Positions 15,483-39,921 of a stretch of 64,000 bases of DNA are shown here, piece by piece; the first letter of the stretch is position 1; each line of letters opens with the position of its first letter. Position numbers and translations under genes: made by a program. Origin of the DNA: Deltaproteobacteria bacterium HGW-Deltaproteobacteria-8 (lineage in GTDB: Bacteria > Desulfobacterota > Desulfovibrionia > Desulfovibrionales > Desulfovibrionaceae); assembly GCA_002840405.1 (NCBI GenBank), contig PHAR01000004.1:408239-472238 (forward strand), given 5' to 3'. The notes below the pieces were generated by a model, which had not been told where the DNA came from, ran no database searches, and was given only the letters and a program-made list of their open reading frames with translations.

Positions 15483-16949
15483 CTACCTTACTCCCTCATC
15501 AGGGCTGCCCAAGCAGGGCTCCCCCAACAGGGAATGATTCTTGGCCTCAAGGATGCGCACCCGCACCATGCGCCCGCAAAGTGACGCGCCAGAATGCTCC
15601 GGACCGGCAAGGCCCGGGCTCATGCGCACGTTCACCACGCGTCCGCCCGGATCGCGCCCGCGCCAGAAGCGCTCGCCTTCGTCCTGCCGACGGCTCAAGG
15701 CCTCCAGCAGCACGTCGGTTTCGCAGCCTTCCAACGCTTTTAGACTTTCTTTAGTAATGCCATTTTGCAAAGACTGCAAGCGCAACAACCTCTCCTGTCC
15801 GACCTCGTCCGGCACCTTGGGGTTCATGCGCGCGGCCGCCACGCCGGGCCTGTCGGAGTAGCGGAAGGAGAAGCTCGACTCGAAGCGCACGCGCTCCATC
15901 ATGTCGAGGGTTTGCAGAAAGTCTTCCTCGCTCTCGCCTGGGAAGCCCACGATGAGGTCCGTGGTCAGGGCGATGTCCGGCCGGGCCTGCCGCAGGTCCG
16001 CAACGATGCCGAGGTAGCGCGCACGGTCCACCTTGCGGCCCATGCGCCGGAGCACCTCGTCGCTGCCCGCCTGCAAGGGCAGGTGCAGGGCCGGGCAGAG
16101 GTTCTCGATCTCACCAAAGGCACGGATCACGGCCGGGTCGATGTCCTTGGGGTGCGAGGTGGTGAAGCGCAGGCGCAGGAGGCCGGGGATGGCCGCCACC
16201 TGGCGCAGCAGCTCGGCAAAGCCCACGCCCGTGCCGCCCGCGTCGAGGCCATAACTGTTGACGTTCTGGCCGAGCAGGGTGATCTCGCGCGCGCCCTGCT
16301 CCACCCGGGTGCGGCACTCGGCCAGCACGGCTTCGGGCTGGCGCGACTTCTGGCGTCCACGCGTGTAGGGCACGATGCAGTAGGTGCAGAAATTGTCGCA
16401 GCCCTGCATGATGTTCACAAAGGCCTGGGCCTGGTTGCCTGGAGGACCGGCTTCCGGCTCGCCCGCGTCGGCGTCGAAGGCAGGGGCCGGGACCTGGGTG
16501 GACAAGGTCAAGACGTCCTCGCGCTCCGGATAGGCGCCTAAGAAATCCAGCAGGGCGATGCGCGCGGCCGGGTCCTCGGCCAGCTGGTCCAGGGCGTCCG
16601 GCGCGGACGCGATGCCGTCGGACCCGAAGACCAGGCGCACAAAGGGAAAACGCTCAAAGAACCCGCGACCGATCTGCTGGGCCACGCAGCCGCCCACGGC
16701 CGCAGTGAGGCCGGGTTTGTTGTGGCGGCCCTTGCCGTAGGCAGAGACCAGCCGCCCCAGCTCACTGTAGACCTTCTGCTCCGGCTTGTCGCGCACGCTG
16801 CAGGTGTTGACCACAAAGAGCCAGGCGTCCTCTTCCGGCACCTGCCGCCAGCCCCGGCTGACCAGGGCGCGGGCCAGCCAGTCGGAGTCGCCGACGTTCA
16901 TCTGGCAGCCGAAGGTGACGATGTGGAAGGTCTTGTCGGTCATGTGCAA
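15483..16949 (-). CDS. miaB: tRNA-2-methylthio-N6-dimethylallyladenosine synthase
   Basis: Radical-SAM methylthiotransferase that adds a methylthio group to i6A37 of tRNA. N-terminal cluster motifs are VTFGCQMNVGDSDWL, VVNTCSVRD and VGGCVAQQ (the three UPF0004 cysteines). The radical SAM motif CDNFCTYC lies near residue 185, then GQNVNSYG, LPLQAGSD and DLIVGFPGE, and a C-terminal TRAM domain. At 488 residues it is slightly longer than average because of an insertion before the radical SAM core. GGAG precedes the TTG at 16949 by six bases; the ATG at 16943 is an alternative with poorer spacing. First gene of a three-gene operon. Confidence 0.96.
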   Translation of the reverse strand: MHMTDKTFHIVTFGCQMNVGDSDWLARALVSRGWRQVPEEDAWLFVVNTCSVRDKPEQKVYSELGRLVSAYGKGRHNKPGLTAAVGGCVAQQIGRGFFERFPFVRLVFGSDGIASAPDALDQLAEDPAARIALLDFLGAYPEREDVLTLSTQVPAPAFDADAGEPEAGPPGNQAQAFVNIMQGCDNFCTYCIVPYTRGRQKSRQPEAVLAECRTRVEQGAREITLLGQNVNSYGLDAGGTGVGFAELLRQVAAIPGLLRLRFTTSHPKDIDPAVIRAFGEIENLCPALHLPLQAGSDEVLRRMGRKVDRARYLGIVADLRQARPDIALTTDLIVGFPGESEEDFLQTLDMMERVRFESSFSFRYSDRPGVAAARMNPKVPDEVGQERLLRLQSLQNGITKESLKALEGCETDVLLEALSRRQDEGERFWRGRDPGGRVVNVRMSPGLAGPEHSGASLCGRMVRVRILEAKNHSLLGEPCLGSPDEGVR

Positions 16950-17153
16950 GGTGGTCTCCGTCGGGGCCTGGCCCGGAGCTGGTCCGGCCAGGGCCGGTCA
17001 AGGCCAATACGGCGCTGGGACACAAGGGGCTGCGGAATCCGCCTGCCCACGGGCGGGGAATTATGCCCCTTTGCGGCTTTGGTCAACGGCCTGGCCCTGA
17101 CGTCATTTTTTTTGGGGGGGGGCTCAGCCTGCGCGGCTGAACCAGCGCTGAAG

Positions 17154-17807
17154 TCAGCGCCGGGGCCAAAACCGGGGGATGAACATGGGCACGCGGCGCG
17201 CATAGCCCGCCCACACCGGCCCCAGCTCGCGCGTCAGGCGGCGCTCCTCGAAGAATGAGCCGACGAGCATGTACAGGCAGCCGAAGAGCGCGAAGGCCGA
17301 ACCGCCCAGGGTCAGGCGCGGCTGGAAGATCAGAAAGAGCATGCCGCCCAGGTGCATGGGGTGGCGCACCAGCCCGTAGGCCCCGGTGCTGGTGAAGTCC
17401 CTGTGCATGTCCGCCTCGTCCGGCAGGCGGCCGCGCACAAGGCTCACGAGCTGCGTCACCCCGAGCATCTTGAGCCCGTGCATGGACACCCCGGCCCAGA
17501 ACAGCAGGGCCAGGCCCGCCAGCTGCACGCCGTACATGCCCAGGGCGGGCAGCCCATCAACAGCCCAGAGCAGCTGCGGCAGGTCCGGCTCCTTCCGGAA
17601 GACGATGTAGAACGTCCACAGGCTGACAAGGCTGTAGGCCGTGGGGTAGAAGGCGTAGCGCGGCCCAAGCAGCAGCTCGAAGGCGGCCTTGACGCGCTTG
17701 GCGGCCAGCACGCTGTGCAGCGCGCCCCAGCCCGTCCACAGGCCAAAGGTGTAGCCCGCGTTGGCCCAGGCCTCCGGACTCAGGGCCTCCGGGGCGAGAG
17801 CGCTCAC
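17154..17807 (-). CDS. isoprenylcysteine carboxyl methyltransferase-like membrane protein
   Basis: The 217-residue membrane protein starts at GTG 17807, which overlaps the stop of the upstream kinase gene in a GTGA arrangement. It has five to six hydrophobic segments. The C-terminus carries the ICMT/NnrU-like SAM-binding pattern GAYGLVRHPMHLGGML and FFEERRLTRELGPVWAGYARRVP, seen in isoprenylcysteine and phospholipid methyltransferases. Bacteria lack prenylated CaaX proteins, so the substrate is more likely a lipid or another membrane molecule. It is the last gene of a cassette with two kinase-fold genes. Confidence 0.78.
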   Translation of the reverse strand: MSALAPEALSPEAWANAGYTFGLWTGWGALHSVLAAKRVKAAFELLLGPRYAFYPTAYSLVSLWTFYIVFRKEPDLPQLLWAVDGLPALGMYGVQLAGLALLFWAGVSMHGLKMLGVTQLVSLVRGRLPDEADMHRDFTSTGAYGLVRHPMHLGGMLFLIFQPRLTLGGSAFALFGCLYMLVGSFFEERRLTRELGPVWAGYARRVPMFIPRFWPRR

Positions 17808-18421
17808 GCCGCGCCGCCCGCATAGCCGGGCAGCCAGCCATCCAAAAAGGTCAGCACCTGGGCCACGTTCTCCGGCACGGGCTTGAGCGCGTCGAGCACG
17901 CACTCGGCCTCCGGGTCCTCCTCAAAGGGCACGTCCACGCCCACCACCTCGCCCAGGCCGGGGATCTCCACTCCTGTGCGGCGGCGCAGCAGCGCCTTCT
18001 GATACATGCCAGGGGTCACGGCGTAGCCGCGCGGATGCGGCTGGTCGCGCACGGCCTCGCGGCGCATGGCCTCGGGCAGGGGGCAGTTGACGTAGACCTC
18101 GGCAAAGCGCGGGATCAGGGCGCGGGCCTCCTGGCGCACGGACAACCGGTGTCCGGTGGCGTCCAGGATCACGCCCCGGCCCTGGGCGGCCAGTTCGGCG
18201 GCCTCGTGGGCGATGCGCTCGTAGGCCACCTTGCGCTCGTCCTCGGTGTAGGCGGGCTTGGGGAAATAGCTCTTGCGGCGCTCGTCCATGACGAGCTGGA
18301 CCACGTCGCGGCCCTGGCCCAAGAGCTCCGCGTGCACGGCGTGGGCGATGGTGCTCTTGCCGCTGCCGGGCAGGCCGGTGAACCAAAGGACCCACCCGCC
18401 GTCCACAGTGCCGTTGGCCAT
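17804..18421 (-). CDS. cysC: adenylylsulfate-kinase-like P-loop kinase
   Basis: The 205-residue P-loop protein has Walker A GLPGSGKST at about residues 16-24, a VMDERRKSYFP segment where APS kinases bind substrate, and EVYVNCPLPEAMRREA typical of CysC. The C-terminal third (MYQKALLRRRTG, then EIPGLGEVVGVDVPFEED) departs from standard CysC, which usually has a LYKKARAG stretch. The reaction may be APS to PAPS or a related phosphorylation, so the symbol is a family label rather than a proven activity. It starts four bases after the APH-like gene; GGAG in the end of that gene serves as its ribosome binding site. Confidence 0.72.
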   Translation of the reverse strand: MANGTVDGGWVLWFTGLPGSGKSTIAHAVHAELLGQGRDVVQLVMDERRKSYFPKPAYTEDERKVAYERIAHEAAELAAQGRGVILDATGHRLSVRQEARALIPRFAEVYVNCPLPEAMRREAVRDQPHPRGYAVTPGMYQKALLRRRTGVEIPGLGEVVGVDVPFEEDPEAECVLDALKPVPENVAQVLTFLDGWLPGYAGGAA

Positions 18422-18424
18422 GCC

Positions 18425-19528
18425 TTACTCCAGGTATCTGTTGGGGTGCCGCCAATCGAAAACATCATCCTCCAGCACGCTGGTCAAAAAGCGCACCAGC
18501 GCCCTCCTGACAGGAAGCGGGTGTTCAGGATACCACTCCGGCGAGACGATGACCAGCCCCCGGAACACGAAGAACGGGGCCATGACCCGAAGCATCTCGG
18601 CGTCGCCGGTGCGCTCCAGGTATTCCTCAAAGAGGGCGCGCCAGAGGTCCAGGAACGGCCCCTCCAGGCAGGCCCTGTCTCCGGCGTTCAACAGCCCGAA
18701 GAGCAGGTAGTTGGCGGCCAGCGTGGCCACGTCGCCCGCGGGCTCGCCCCACTCGCCCCGGCTGCGGTCGAGCACCGAGAACCCGGCCCGCTGGTCCACA
18801 GGGCCGTCCACCAGGATGTTCCAGGGGTGGAAGTCGCCGTGGACCGCGGCCAGACGGTGCGAAAAGGAGCGCAGCTTCCAGCGCCAGTCGATGAGCCGCT
18901 TTTCGAGCGCCAGGAATGCGGCGGCGGGCAGGAATTCGCAGGGGTGCGGGAAGGCCTCGTCGATGAGGCCCATGATGCACTCGCTGGCGCCCAGCAGGTT
19001 GCGGATGTGGCGGTAATAGAGGTCCGGGTCGTCCTTCCTGGTGGCGTGGACCTCGGCCAGCCACCTCGCGAAGTCGCGCGCCTGCTCCACGTCGCCGGGC
19101 CGGAAGTCGCCGTGGCCGATGCGGTCCAGGTCCTGGAAGTAGTCGTAGCCCTCAAGCTTTTCGTTCAAGATGAAGAATTCCTGGGGCGTGAACACCGGCA
19201 CCAGCCGGTTGCGGCCGTCCACATAGCCCAGGCCCAGCGGCCGCACGTGGCGCGGCAGCCGGGCGCTGGTCTCGTACTGGAACATGAGGATGGCCGCGCG
19301 GTCCCAGTAGAACTGGTGGCCATACTTGTCGCCGCGCATGACCGAGAGCACGCCCTCGCGCACCACTCCGTTCACGCGGAAGCGCACCAGGAGCGGCTTG
19401 CCGTAGCCGAAGCGCTTGATGCCCTGTTTGTCCAGGGTGCCGATGGCCCCCAGGTCCAGGAGCTCCGTGCCGTCGCCGTAGGCCTGGCGCAGATACTCCG
19501 CAACACTCTCCGGCTTCAGGTCGATCAT
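18425..19528 (-). CDS. APH-family phosphotransferase-like protein
   Basis: The 367-residue protein starts at ATG 19528, four bases after GAGGAGG. It contains the aminoglycoside phosphotransferase/choline-kinase-fold catalytic loop VHGDFHPWNILV (about residue 243) and the metal-binding VLDRSRGEWGEPAGDVATLA segment, where the usual DFG-like Asp is in VLDRS. The N-terminal half is unlike classic resistance enzymes. In many proteobacteria an APH-like domain and a P-loop kinase domain occur as one fused protein; here they are adjacent separate genes. Antibiotic resistance is not implied. The substrate is unknown. Confidence 0.78.
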   Translation of the reverse strand: MIDLKPESVAEYLRQAYGDGTELLDLGAIGTLDKQGIKRFGYGKPLLVRFRVNGVVREGVLSVMRGDKYGHQFYWDRAAILMFQYETSARLPRHVRPLGLGYVDGRNRLVPVFTPQEFFILNEKLEGYDYFQDLDRIGHGDFRPGDVEQARDFARWLAEVHATRKDDPDLYYRHIRNLLGASECIMGLIDEAFPHPCEFLPAAAFLALEKRLIDWRWKLRSFSHRLAAVHGDFHPWNILVDGPVDQRAGFSVLDRSRGEWGEPAGDVATLAANYLLFGLLNAGDRACLEGPFLDLWRALFEEYLERTGDAEMLRVMAPFFVFRGLVIVSPEWYPEHPLPVRRALVRFLTSVLEDDVFDWRHPNRYLE

Positions 19529-19630: not shown

Positions 19631-20578
19631 CTAGAGGCTCCGGCCGAAATGAGCGTTCAGCTGCTCGGCCACCATGCCCAGGGTGAAATGGTGCTCCTGG
19701 GTGCCCTTTTTCTCCACGCACCAGGCCGCGCAGATGGCGCCCAGGGCCGCGGCCTCGGCCAGAGTCTGGCCCAGGCACAGCCCCTTCATGAGCCCGGCGC
19801 GGAAGGCGTCGCCCGCGCCCGTGGGGTCCAGGGCCTTGTCCACCTTGACGGCGGGCACCCGGGTCTCCTTCACGCCCTCGGAAGTGGCCTCAACGATGAT
19901 GGAGCCCTGCTCGCCCAGGGTGGTCACCAGTGCGCCGGTGAGCTGCAAAAGTTCGGCGCGGGAAAGCCCGGTGGCCTTCATGACCATCTCCAGCTCGTAG
20001 TCGTTGGTGCACAGGGCGATCGAGCCGGTGATGGCGTGGGTCATCTGCTCGCCGGTGAGCGCCGTGATCTGCTGGCCCGGGTCAAAGATGTAGGGGATGC
20101 CCGCCTTCTTGAAATACTCGGGCAGCTCCACCATGTCGGCCACGTTGCCCGGCGAGATGATGGCCAGCACGCCGTCGTCGTGCTTGGGCGGGAACTTGTA
20201 GCCGCAGCGCTCGCGCATGGCGCCGGGATTGAAGCCGGTGATCTGGTTGTCGCTCTGGTCGGTGGTGATGTAGGCCCCGGCGGTGAACTGGTCGGCCACC
20301 ATGCGGATGCCCGCCTGGGACAGGCCCAGCTCGTCCAGGCGCTGGCCGTAGGCCGCGAAGTCCTTGCCAGCGCAGCCCAGGATCAGCGGCTTCTCGCCGA
20401 GCAGCGCCAGATTGTAGGCGATGTTCCCGGCCGTGCCGCCGAAATACTCGCTCATGCCGTCCACCAGGAAGCAGACGTTCAGGATGTGGATCTTGTCCGG
20501 CAGGATGTGGTCCGCGAACTTGCCGGGAAAATTCATGATGCGGTCAAGGGCCAGGGAACCGGAAATATAGAGCTGCAT
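19631..20578 (-). CDS. PfkB-family carbohydrate/nucleoside kinase, adenosine-kinase-like
   Basis: A 315-residue ribokinase-family protein. It has the N-terminal GSLALDRIMNFPG, the diglycine region EYFGGTAGNIAYNLALLG, and the C-terminal catalytic motif DPTGAGDAFRAG with the base Asp. The start has GGAGGCCTCTTC upstream. The overall pattern (KVDKALDPTGAG, VEKKGTQEH) resembles bacterial adenosine kinases more than fructokinases, but sugar kinases cannot be excluded. It is on the minus strand, 54 bases downstream of cutA. Its own transcription unit is likely short. Confidence 0.8.
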   Translation of the reverse strand: MQLYISGSLALDRIMNFPGKFADHILPDKIHILNVCFLVDGMSEYFGGTAGNIAYNLALLGEKPLILGCAGKDFAAYGQRLDELGLSQAGIRMVADQFTAGAYITTDQSDNQITGFNPGAMRERCGYKFPPKHDDGVLAIISPGNVADMVELPEYFKKAGIPYIFDPGQQITALTGEQMTHAITGSIALCTNDYELEMVMKATGLSRAELLQLTGALVTTLGEQGSIIVEATSEGVKETRVPAVKVDKALDPTGAGDAFRAGLMKGLCLGQTLAEAAALGAICAAWCVEKKGTQEHHFTLGMVAEQLNAHFGRSL

Positions 20579-20632: not shown

Positions 20633-21022
20633 TCAGCCGCGCGGGCCGGTTTTGTCGGTCTCGGGTGTCTGGTCGGTCTCGGCAACGATCCAGTCCAGGA
20701 AGTCCCTGTGGCCGCCCTCGATGGGCAGCACCACCACGCACGGGCAGTCGTAGCTGTGGGCCTCGGCCAGGACACGGGTCAGCTCCCCGGCCAAAACCTC
20801 GGTGGTCTTGAGCAGCAGCACCACCTCGTCGGCCTGTTCCAGCTTGCCCCGCCACCAGTACAGCGAGCGCATGCCGGGCAGGATGTTGGCGCAGGCCGCC
20901 AGCCGCCGCGTCACGGCCAAGCGCGCCAGGCTCTCGGCCTCAGCCAGGCTCGGCGCGGTGACGTACACCAGACGGACGGCCAGGCGGGCGGACACGAGCC
21001 CTGCAGCCAGGTCTACTGGCAC
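20633..21022 (-). CDS. cutA: divalent-cation tolerance protein CutA
   Basis: Small trimeric CutA1-family protein, linked to copper tolerance in E. coli and of unclear role elsewhere. It contains YVTAPSLAEAESLARLAV, ACANILPGMRSLYWWRGKLE (family core), and VVLPIEGGHRDFLDWI. The GTG at 21022 overlaps the end of the cytochrome gene by ten bases; a second GTG at 20995 would give the more usual short N-terminus and is a fair alternative. The C-terminal 20 residues are hydrophilic and Thr- and Asp-rich. Confidence 0.9.
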   Translation of the reverse strand: MPVDLAAGLVSARLAVRLVYVTAPSLAEAESLARLAVTRRLAACANILPGMRSLYWWRGKLEQADEVVLLLKTTEVLAGELTRVLAEAHSYDCPCVVVLPIEGGHRDFLDWIVAETDQTPETDKTGPRG

Positions 21023-39845: not shown

Positions 39846-39921
39846 TCCCCGGTAGCTCAATCGGCAGAGCGGGTGGCTGTTAACCACTAGGTTCGCGGTT
39901 CAAGTCCGTGCCGGGGAGCCA
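39846..39921 (+). tRNA. tRNA-Asn(GTT)
   Basis: The 76-base sequence folds as a tRNA. The acceptor stem is TCCCCGG (39846-39852) with CCGGGGA (39911-39917), and D, anticodon and T arms are all present. The seven-base anticodon loop CTGTTAA gives anticodon GTT. A CCA end is encoded (39919-39921). It is followed at once by a strong terminator, and an accessory-looking gene cassette lies downstream. As a GUN-anticodon tRNA it is a substrate of the Tgt enzyme encoded in this window. Confidence 0.98.

Follow-up and report, generated by a model that had tools for sequence, protein, structure and literature searches.

What does a kinase with the fold of APS kinase do when its gene sits between those of an APH-fold kinase and a membrane methyltransferase? 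The three genes lie on the minus strand of the window, a stretch of 64,000 nucleotides from a genome of 3.5 Mb whose nearest named relatives, judged by the CysC-like protein, include Humidesulfovibrio. Read along that strand, the gene order is cutA, pfkB, APH-like, CysC-like, methyltransferase and miaB (Table 1). A first-pass annotation had described positions 17154-19528 as three genes joined by four-base overlaps or gaps, and had proposed that their products modify one molecule in three steps. All three genes are present and were placed correctly, and their spacing agrees with that description: 3 nt separate the APH-like and CysC-like genes, and the CysC-like gene overlaps the methyltransferase gene, which probably starts at the GTG at position 17807, by 4 nt (GTGA). 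The coordinates given there omit neighbors that are conserved in position, namely cutA and pfkB upstream and, downstream, a gene that we take from its sequence to be miaB. Scans for promoters and terminators at the locus returned nothing above shuffled sequences. We argue below that the unit is the pair of kinases, and that the best explanation of the pair is a two-kinase relay acting on a phosphorylated, perhaps ribose-like acceptor, a reading to which we assign a probability of about 0.5.

Table 1. Genes and protein motifs of the two-kinase locus, in order of transcription (positions in the window).
Feature	Position	Strand	Basis or conservation
cutA, upstream positional neighbor	20633..21022	-	Pfam CutA1
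pfkB-family sugar/nucleoside kinase, upstream positional neighbor	19631..20578	-	Pfam PfkB
APH-fold small-molecule kinase, 367 aa, start ATG	18425..19528	-	Pfam APH and AlphaFold2 model
N-lobe signature MRGDKYGHQFYWDR of APH-like protein	19298..19339	-	invariant class residues
Catalytic loop HGDFHPWN of APH-like protein	18818..18841	-	invariant class residues
LDRSRG motif of APH-like protein	18755..18772	-	D254 invariant in 117/117
CysC-like (APS-kinase-superfamily) P-loop kinase, 205 aa	17804..18421	-	Pfam APS_kinase, model and PDB matches
P-loop GLPGSGKS of CysC-like kinase	18353..18376	-	K22 in 112/112 linked class sequences
LxMDxxR replacing LDGDxxR, CysC-like kinase	18275..18295	-	retains D46 and R49 but not the first Asp or the Gly
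Y58, R63 and Y67 of CysC-like kinase	18221..18250	-	each 112/112
DATG replacing xxIS of ISP region, CysC-like kinase	18152..18163	-	D87 112/112
Lid region with insert, CysC-like kinase	18005..18055	-	invariant Arg125, 112/112
Membrane methyltransferase, ICMT/MddA-like, 217 aa; lineage-specific neighbor	17154..17807	-	NCBIfam MddA, below cut-off
miaB (presumed), downstream positional neighbor	15483..16949	-	same strand in 92/118 loci

The unit is the APH-like/CysC-like pair, not the trio. Among the 247 genomes of the class that we searched, every one of the 118 with an APH-like gene also has a CysC-like gene; the CysC-like profile scores at least 190 bits in these same 118 genomes, the next match reaching 149.7 bits, and none of the 247 carries one kinase gene while lacking the other. 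Under the simplification that genomes are independent, which does not hold, the hypergeometric log10 p is about -73. Cultured carriers of the pair include Pseudodesulfovibrio pelocollis and Solidesulfovibrio alcoholivorans. In a phylum sample of 297 genomes, the APH profile matched 19, of which 4 are genomes of the window's own family already in the class set, and the CysC-like profile exceeded 100 bits in the same 19 (104 versus 89.4 bits for the next match). These searches score only the top candidates of a loose first pass, and a few misses are possible. The two genes are also linked. The CysC-like gene lies nearby on the same strand in 112 of 118 class loci, within 200 nt in 107 of them, and the pair is adjacent in 18 of the 19 phylum genomes, with the genes on different contigs in G425. 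The six exceptions in the class, five from genus g47 and one from g39, all belong to genomes that have a CysC-like gene elsewhere; in G033 the separated gene still adjoins miaB, and in the g47 loci read it stands beside an RNA-methyltransferase gene. The pair is conserved far more strictly than chance would allow, with co-inheritance and linkage both evident, and its strict co-occurrence and joint absence bear out the earlier view that the first two proteins form one unit. In the draft genome of Desulfothermus okinawensis (L053:4904-6571), each of the two genes is split into frames that overlap, through sequencing errors or decay.

The methyltransferase follows a different pattern. Homologs occur in 29 of 247 class genomes, and only 12 of the 118 genomes with the pair have the gene alongside it: 10 from the window's genus, where adjacency is found in 10 of 10, and 2 from genus g8, with 36-38% identity. 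In 6 further pair genomes it is present and unlinked, and 11 genomes of g45 match it weakly and lack the pair. Thus, the neighborhood survey supports a conserved linkage of the two kinases while confining that of the methyltransferase to a few genomes, and we reject the trio as a unit of general occurrence. A three-step modification that includes methylation, as first proposed, draws on the four-base overlap in the window and on the adjacency in these 12 genomes; with no such gene next to the pair in the other 106 of 118, it does not hold as a general rule, and we regard it as highly improbable. The methyltransferase would instead be an accessory in the genus of the window and in g8. Its best curated match, MddA (E 2e-20), scores 72.9 bits against a cut-off of 270, and it reaches 19.7 of the 160 bits needed for ICMT, so that its apparent kinship to isoprenylcysteine/MddA methyltransferases is a superfamily resemblance only.

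The remaining neighbors are conserved in position without being members of the unit. cutA, pfkB and miaB lie on the same strand as the pair in 89, 83 and 92 of 118 loci, respectively, some loci being cut by contig ends. We considered and rejected pfkB as a third member: 214 of 247 class genomes carry it, it persists where the pair is missing, and in some pair genomes nothing matches it at E 1e-40. Outside the class, among the loci read, pfkB is found near the pair only in L197, where it is divergent. In other lineages, single cases show a nucleotidyltransferase or a trehalose-synthase-like gene near the pair. At an f25 locus (L207:1932-9430), genes for trehalose-synthase-like, PRC-barrel and HtrA-like proteins surround it, together with what are presumably a universal stress protein and GalT.

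Could the kinases act on tRNA or other RNA? The CysC-like gene has RNA-enzyme neighbors in three settings (miaB in Desulfovibrionales, a PolyA_pol-type or CCA-adding-like gene downstream in the f33 loci L198, L202 and L203, and the RNA methyltransferase in g47), and its product weakly matches seryl-tRNA kinase (E 9e-8). Nevertheless, miaB persists where the pair is absent, the neighbors differ in other lineages, and the CysC-like model consists of an APS-kinase-like domain with no extra domain, all of which makes an RNA substrate very unlikely in our judgment.

Genomes that have dropped the pair are also informative. Within the class set, genus g7 has 27 genomes with the pair and 4 that lack both genes (G059, G074, G087 and G151; loci L233-L236), in which cutA-pfkB and miaB are intact on either side of a short gap. 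All four gaps match the 3' end of the carriers' cysC, with scores of 31-44 compared to maxima of 25-29 after shuffling; for each gap, none of 200 shuffles, made by permuting consecutive two-base blocks rather than by strict dinucleotide shuffling, scored as high. This trace, encoding LHxLDT, is retained at all four empty sites, and the retained cysC end may carry a putative miaB promoter. The four pair-less genomes require four changes on the PfkB tree, all forced by starred branches, and four on the MiaB tree, three of them forced. Because a similar piece of cysC remains at all four sites, a single deleted allele may have spread by recombination, as an alternative to independent deletions that kept a putative miaB promoter. 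Either way, whether by repeated joint loss or by spread of a single deletion, the pair goes as a unit.

Two other readings bear on this pattern. First, the repeated joint absence, along with a weak Pfam zeta-toxin match (E 3e-5), might recall a toxin-antitoxin or defense pair. Inheritance of the pair is mostly vertical, however, since APH-like and CysC-like distances track those of PfkB (r 0.87 and 0.81 across 35 loci). PADLOC matches are weak, the best (E 6e-4) spanning a P-loop-sized stretch, and a plasmid search with the APH-like protein gave 10 records with short, weak matches, none covering most of the protein; the best of these regions (L231), read by eye, has an APH-like frame without a joined second kinase. 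We therefore judge a toxin or defense role most improbable. Second, the two proteins could make up an obligate complex in which one regulates the other or serves as its partner subunit, the two not being consecutive enzymes. Strict co-occurrence and joint absence fit this main rival equally well, but both proteins retain their catalytic residues, and we consider it unlikely.

The CysC-like protein belongs to the APS-kinase superfamily. It scores 71.7 bits against Pfam APS_kinase (PF01583; cut-off 21.1), and the 50 best PDB matches of its model (pLDDT 92.1) are all APS kinases or APS-kinase domains. In a tree of 55 rows, however, a branch with support of 100/99 separates 23 APS-kinase-type proteins, picked from search hits and classed by annotation, score or motif rather than by assay, from 31 pair-type proteins (including that of G425, whose gene sits on a separate contig) and one archaeal protein. 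This placement outside the APS-kinase-type proteins, together with an altered pocket, agrees with the earlier view of the protein as atypical for an APS kinase. The archaeal relative, from a Methanosarcinales metagenome-assembled genome (L054:5992-6537), lies beside CdhD, and no APH relative was found near it within 11.6 kb; its membership of the clade implies that the CysC-like subfamily can occur without an adjacent APH gene.

Where the pocket departs from that of APS kinase is best seen by comparison with M. tuberculosis CysC. Its ribose- and phosphosulfate-binding residues include D480, R483 and R497, and F576 is the adenine-stacking residue (PMC4373884); the mapping of these contacts onto the CysC-like family is our own. 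By this mapping, the CysC-like protein shares with the M. tuberculosis enzyme its fold, P-loop and P-loop Lys, the catalytic Asp480 (D46), the two phosphosulfate arginines R483 (R49) and R497 (R63), the lid Arg559 (R121) and an aromatic residue at F492 (Tyr58); D46, R49 and R63 are present in all 112 linked class sequences, a count that leaves out the 6 unlinked genes. By contrast, LDGD has lost D478 and G479, ISP its Ser and FTG its Thr, F576 is likewise replaced, and the lid has inserts. The window protein reads LVMD in place of LDGD: at position 44, Asp is universal among the 23 APS-kinase-type rows, absent from the 15 Desulfovibrionales rows (taken from the 42 in alignment A1) and present in 3 of the 16 remaining pair-type rows. 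Position 90, the Ser of ISP, is Ala or Gly in 112 of 112, versus Ser in 19 of the 23 APS-kinase-type rows, and the surrounding DATG site reads mostly D[AG][TS][AG] across the family. The APS-kinase equivalents of Y58, R63 and Y67 are Phe, Arg and mostly Ile or Val. The lid insert is missing from all 23 APS-kinase-type rows, and position 159, equivalent to F576, is Val in 112 of 112 where FTG would supply an aromatic residue. Finally, a Lys before GLY, which we map to K562 of M. tuberculosis CysC, is found in 12 of 16 other pair-type rows and 0 of 15 from Desulfovibrionales. The first-pass annotation had placed the divergence in the C-terminal third; the lid inserts and loss of FTG do fall there, but LDGD and ISP, in the first two thirds, are replaced as well. 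Judged by the residues kept and changed, the enzyme retains its ATP side along with the catalytic base and the anion site, while the adenine side and the metal-water site differ.

Might this nonetheless be an APS kinase with a drifted pocket, producing PAPS? The fold, the P-loop, the catalytic Asp and both phosphosulfate arginines are those of an APS kinase, the gene is the only PF01583 match in its own genome, and an f33 relative (L202), at 141.1 bits, exceeds the NCBIfam apsK equivalog-domain cut-off of 138.7. The window protein, however, scores 71.8 bits in that test and falls in the separate clade with LDGD, ISP and FTG replaced, and the f33 members, although nearer APS kinase by score, share most of the motif changes. 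Moreover, the source genome has no match to Sulfotransfer_1 or Sulfotransfer_3, many pair genomes carry an additional, weaker match to the family, as if an APS kinase were also present, and PAPS synthesis would leave the strict coupling to the APH-like gene unexplained. We consider production of PAPS quite unlikely; judging by its residues, the CysC-like enzyme is likely not a working APS kinase.

The APH-like protein belongs to the APH phosphotransferase family. It scores 37 bits against Pfam APH (PF01636; cut-off 23.2), although no NCBIfam family matched at E 0.1 and a PDB sequence search with the APH profile gave nothing at E 0.01. Its AlphaFold2 model (pLDDT 86.9; good in the C-lobe, weaker in parts of the N-lobe) matches the APH/choline-kinase/methylthioribose-kinase fold. 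VIA-align places methylthioribose kinases at the top (Z 22-23), level with the tryptamine kinase PsiK and with others close behind; on the strength of the model, this resemblance is a match of fold, not of function. The HGDxxxxN and Asp catalytic set, with H230, G231, D232, H234, P235 and N237, is invariant in all 117 full-length class sequences, one short fragment being left out, and HGD[FY]HPxN and DRSRG are both retained in 14 of 14 distant relatives. The Asp of LDRSRG presumably binds metal. In the N-lobe, D67, G70, H71, Q72, W75, D76 and R77 are invariant in the same 117 sequences; in the distant relatives, the Gly and the D-R are kept in 14 of 14 and the His in 13 of 14. The catalytic set, the metal Asp and the modeled fold are thus shared with PF01636 relatives, unlike which the APH-like protein has its own GHQxxWDR and DRSRG signatures.

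We propose that the two proteins would form a dispensable, strictly interdependent module. The APH-fold enzyme would use ATP to phosphorylate a hydroxyl group on a small molecule, which may be a nucleoside or a sugar resembling ribose. Next, R49 and R63 of the CysC-like enzyme could bind the phosphate so placed, at the site where APS kinase binds phosphosulfate, and D46 could then serve phosphorylation of a second hydroxyl, yielding a doubly phosphorylated metabolite. That both enzymes work on one molecule, the order in which they act and the ribose-like acceptor are the parts that we infer; the joint retention and loss of the genes across sulfate-reducing bacteria point to two-step phosphorylation, not ordinary sulfur metabolism. 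Among the observations against the relay are the closeness of f33 members to apsK, the archaeal L054 gene without an APH relative nearby, and the absence from Desulfovibrionales of the Lys before GLY. In two of four f54 genomes, the CysC-like gene is overlapped at its end by a gene of the Inositol_P family (inositol-phosphatase/CysQ superfamily), which reaches none of the curated NCBIfam cut-offs; by its family resemblance, such a neighbor would suit a bisphosphate product.

Known systems offer partial parallels. The cytidine diphosphoramidate kinase Cj1415 is an APS-kinase relative that works on another acceptor. We liken our protein to Cj1415 by description, and recognized no MeOPN capsule-pathway neighbor beside the pair. 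The Campylobacter MeOPN pathway ends in CDP-phosphoramidate 3'-phosphate (PMC11800397). The CysC-like gene is linked to an APH kinase, whereas that of the APS kinase CysC is linked to CysD/CysN. A matching domain order is that of the fused APH/AAA_33 proteins (COG2187-COG0645, such as Rv2004c), in which an APH domain precedes a P-loop kinase. The likeness to these proteins is one of domain order; no fused APH-CysC frame occurs in the 135 loci examined, the profile searches covering the window's own phylum, and for these loci we reject the fused form invoked in the first-pass annotation.

More broadly, 'adenylyl-sulfate kinase' labels in sulfate reducers invite a reading in terms of sulfur metabolism, whereas the gene is one half of a coupled pair of kinases, and for these CysC-like genes the annotation is probably wrong in function. 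If the relay is correct, sulfur-cycle annotations would need correction in many genomes. We found no description of this kinase pair in the openly accessible literature searched. More tentatively, and at somewhat less than even odds, the pair may make a new doubly phosphorylated metabolite or signal in anaerobic bacteria, by way of an enzyme derived from APS kinase that binds the phosphate added by its APH partner; the pathway would then be new, and the APS-kinase superfamily would gain an activity not seen in it before.

Two minor features of the window may be recorded. Just past the methyltransferase gene, at 17106-17125, a run of T is followed by a run of G, a possible assembly-sensitive repeat, and one tRNA at 39846-39918 is the only Rfam match at the gathering threshold within the window.
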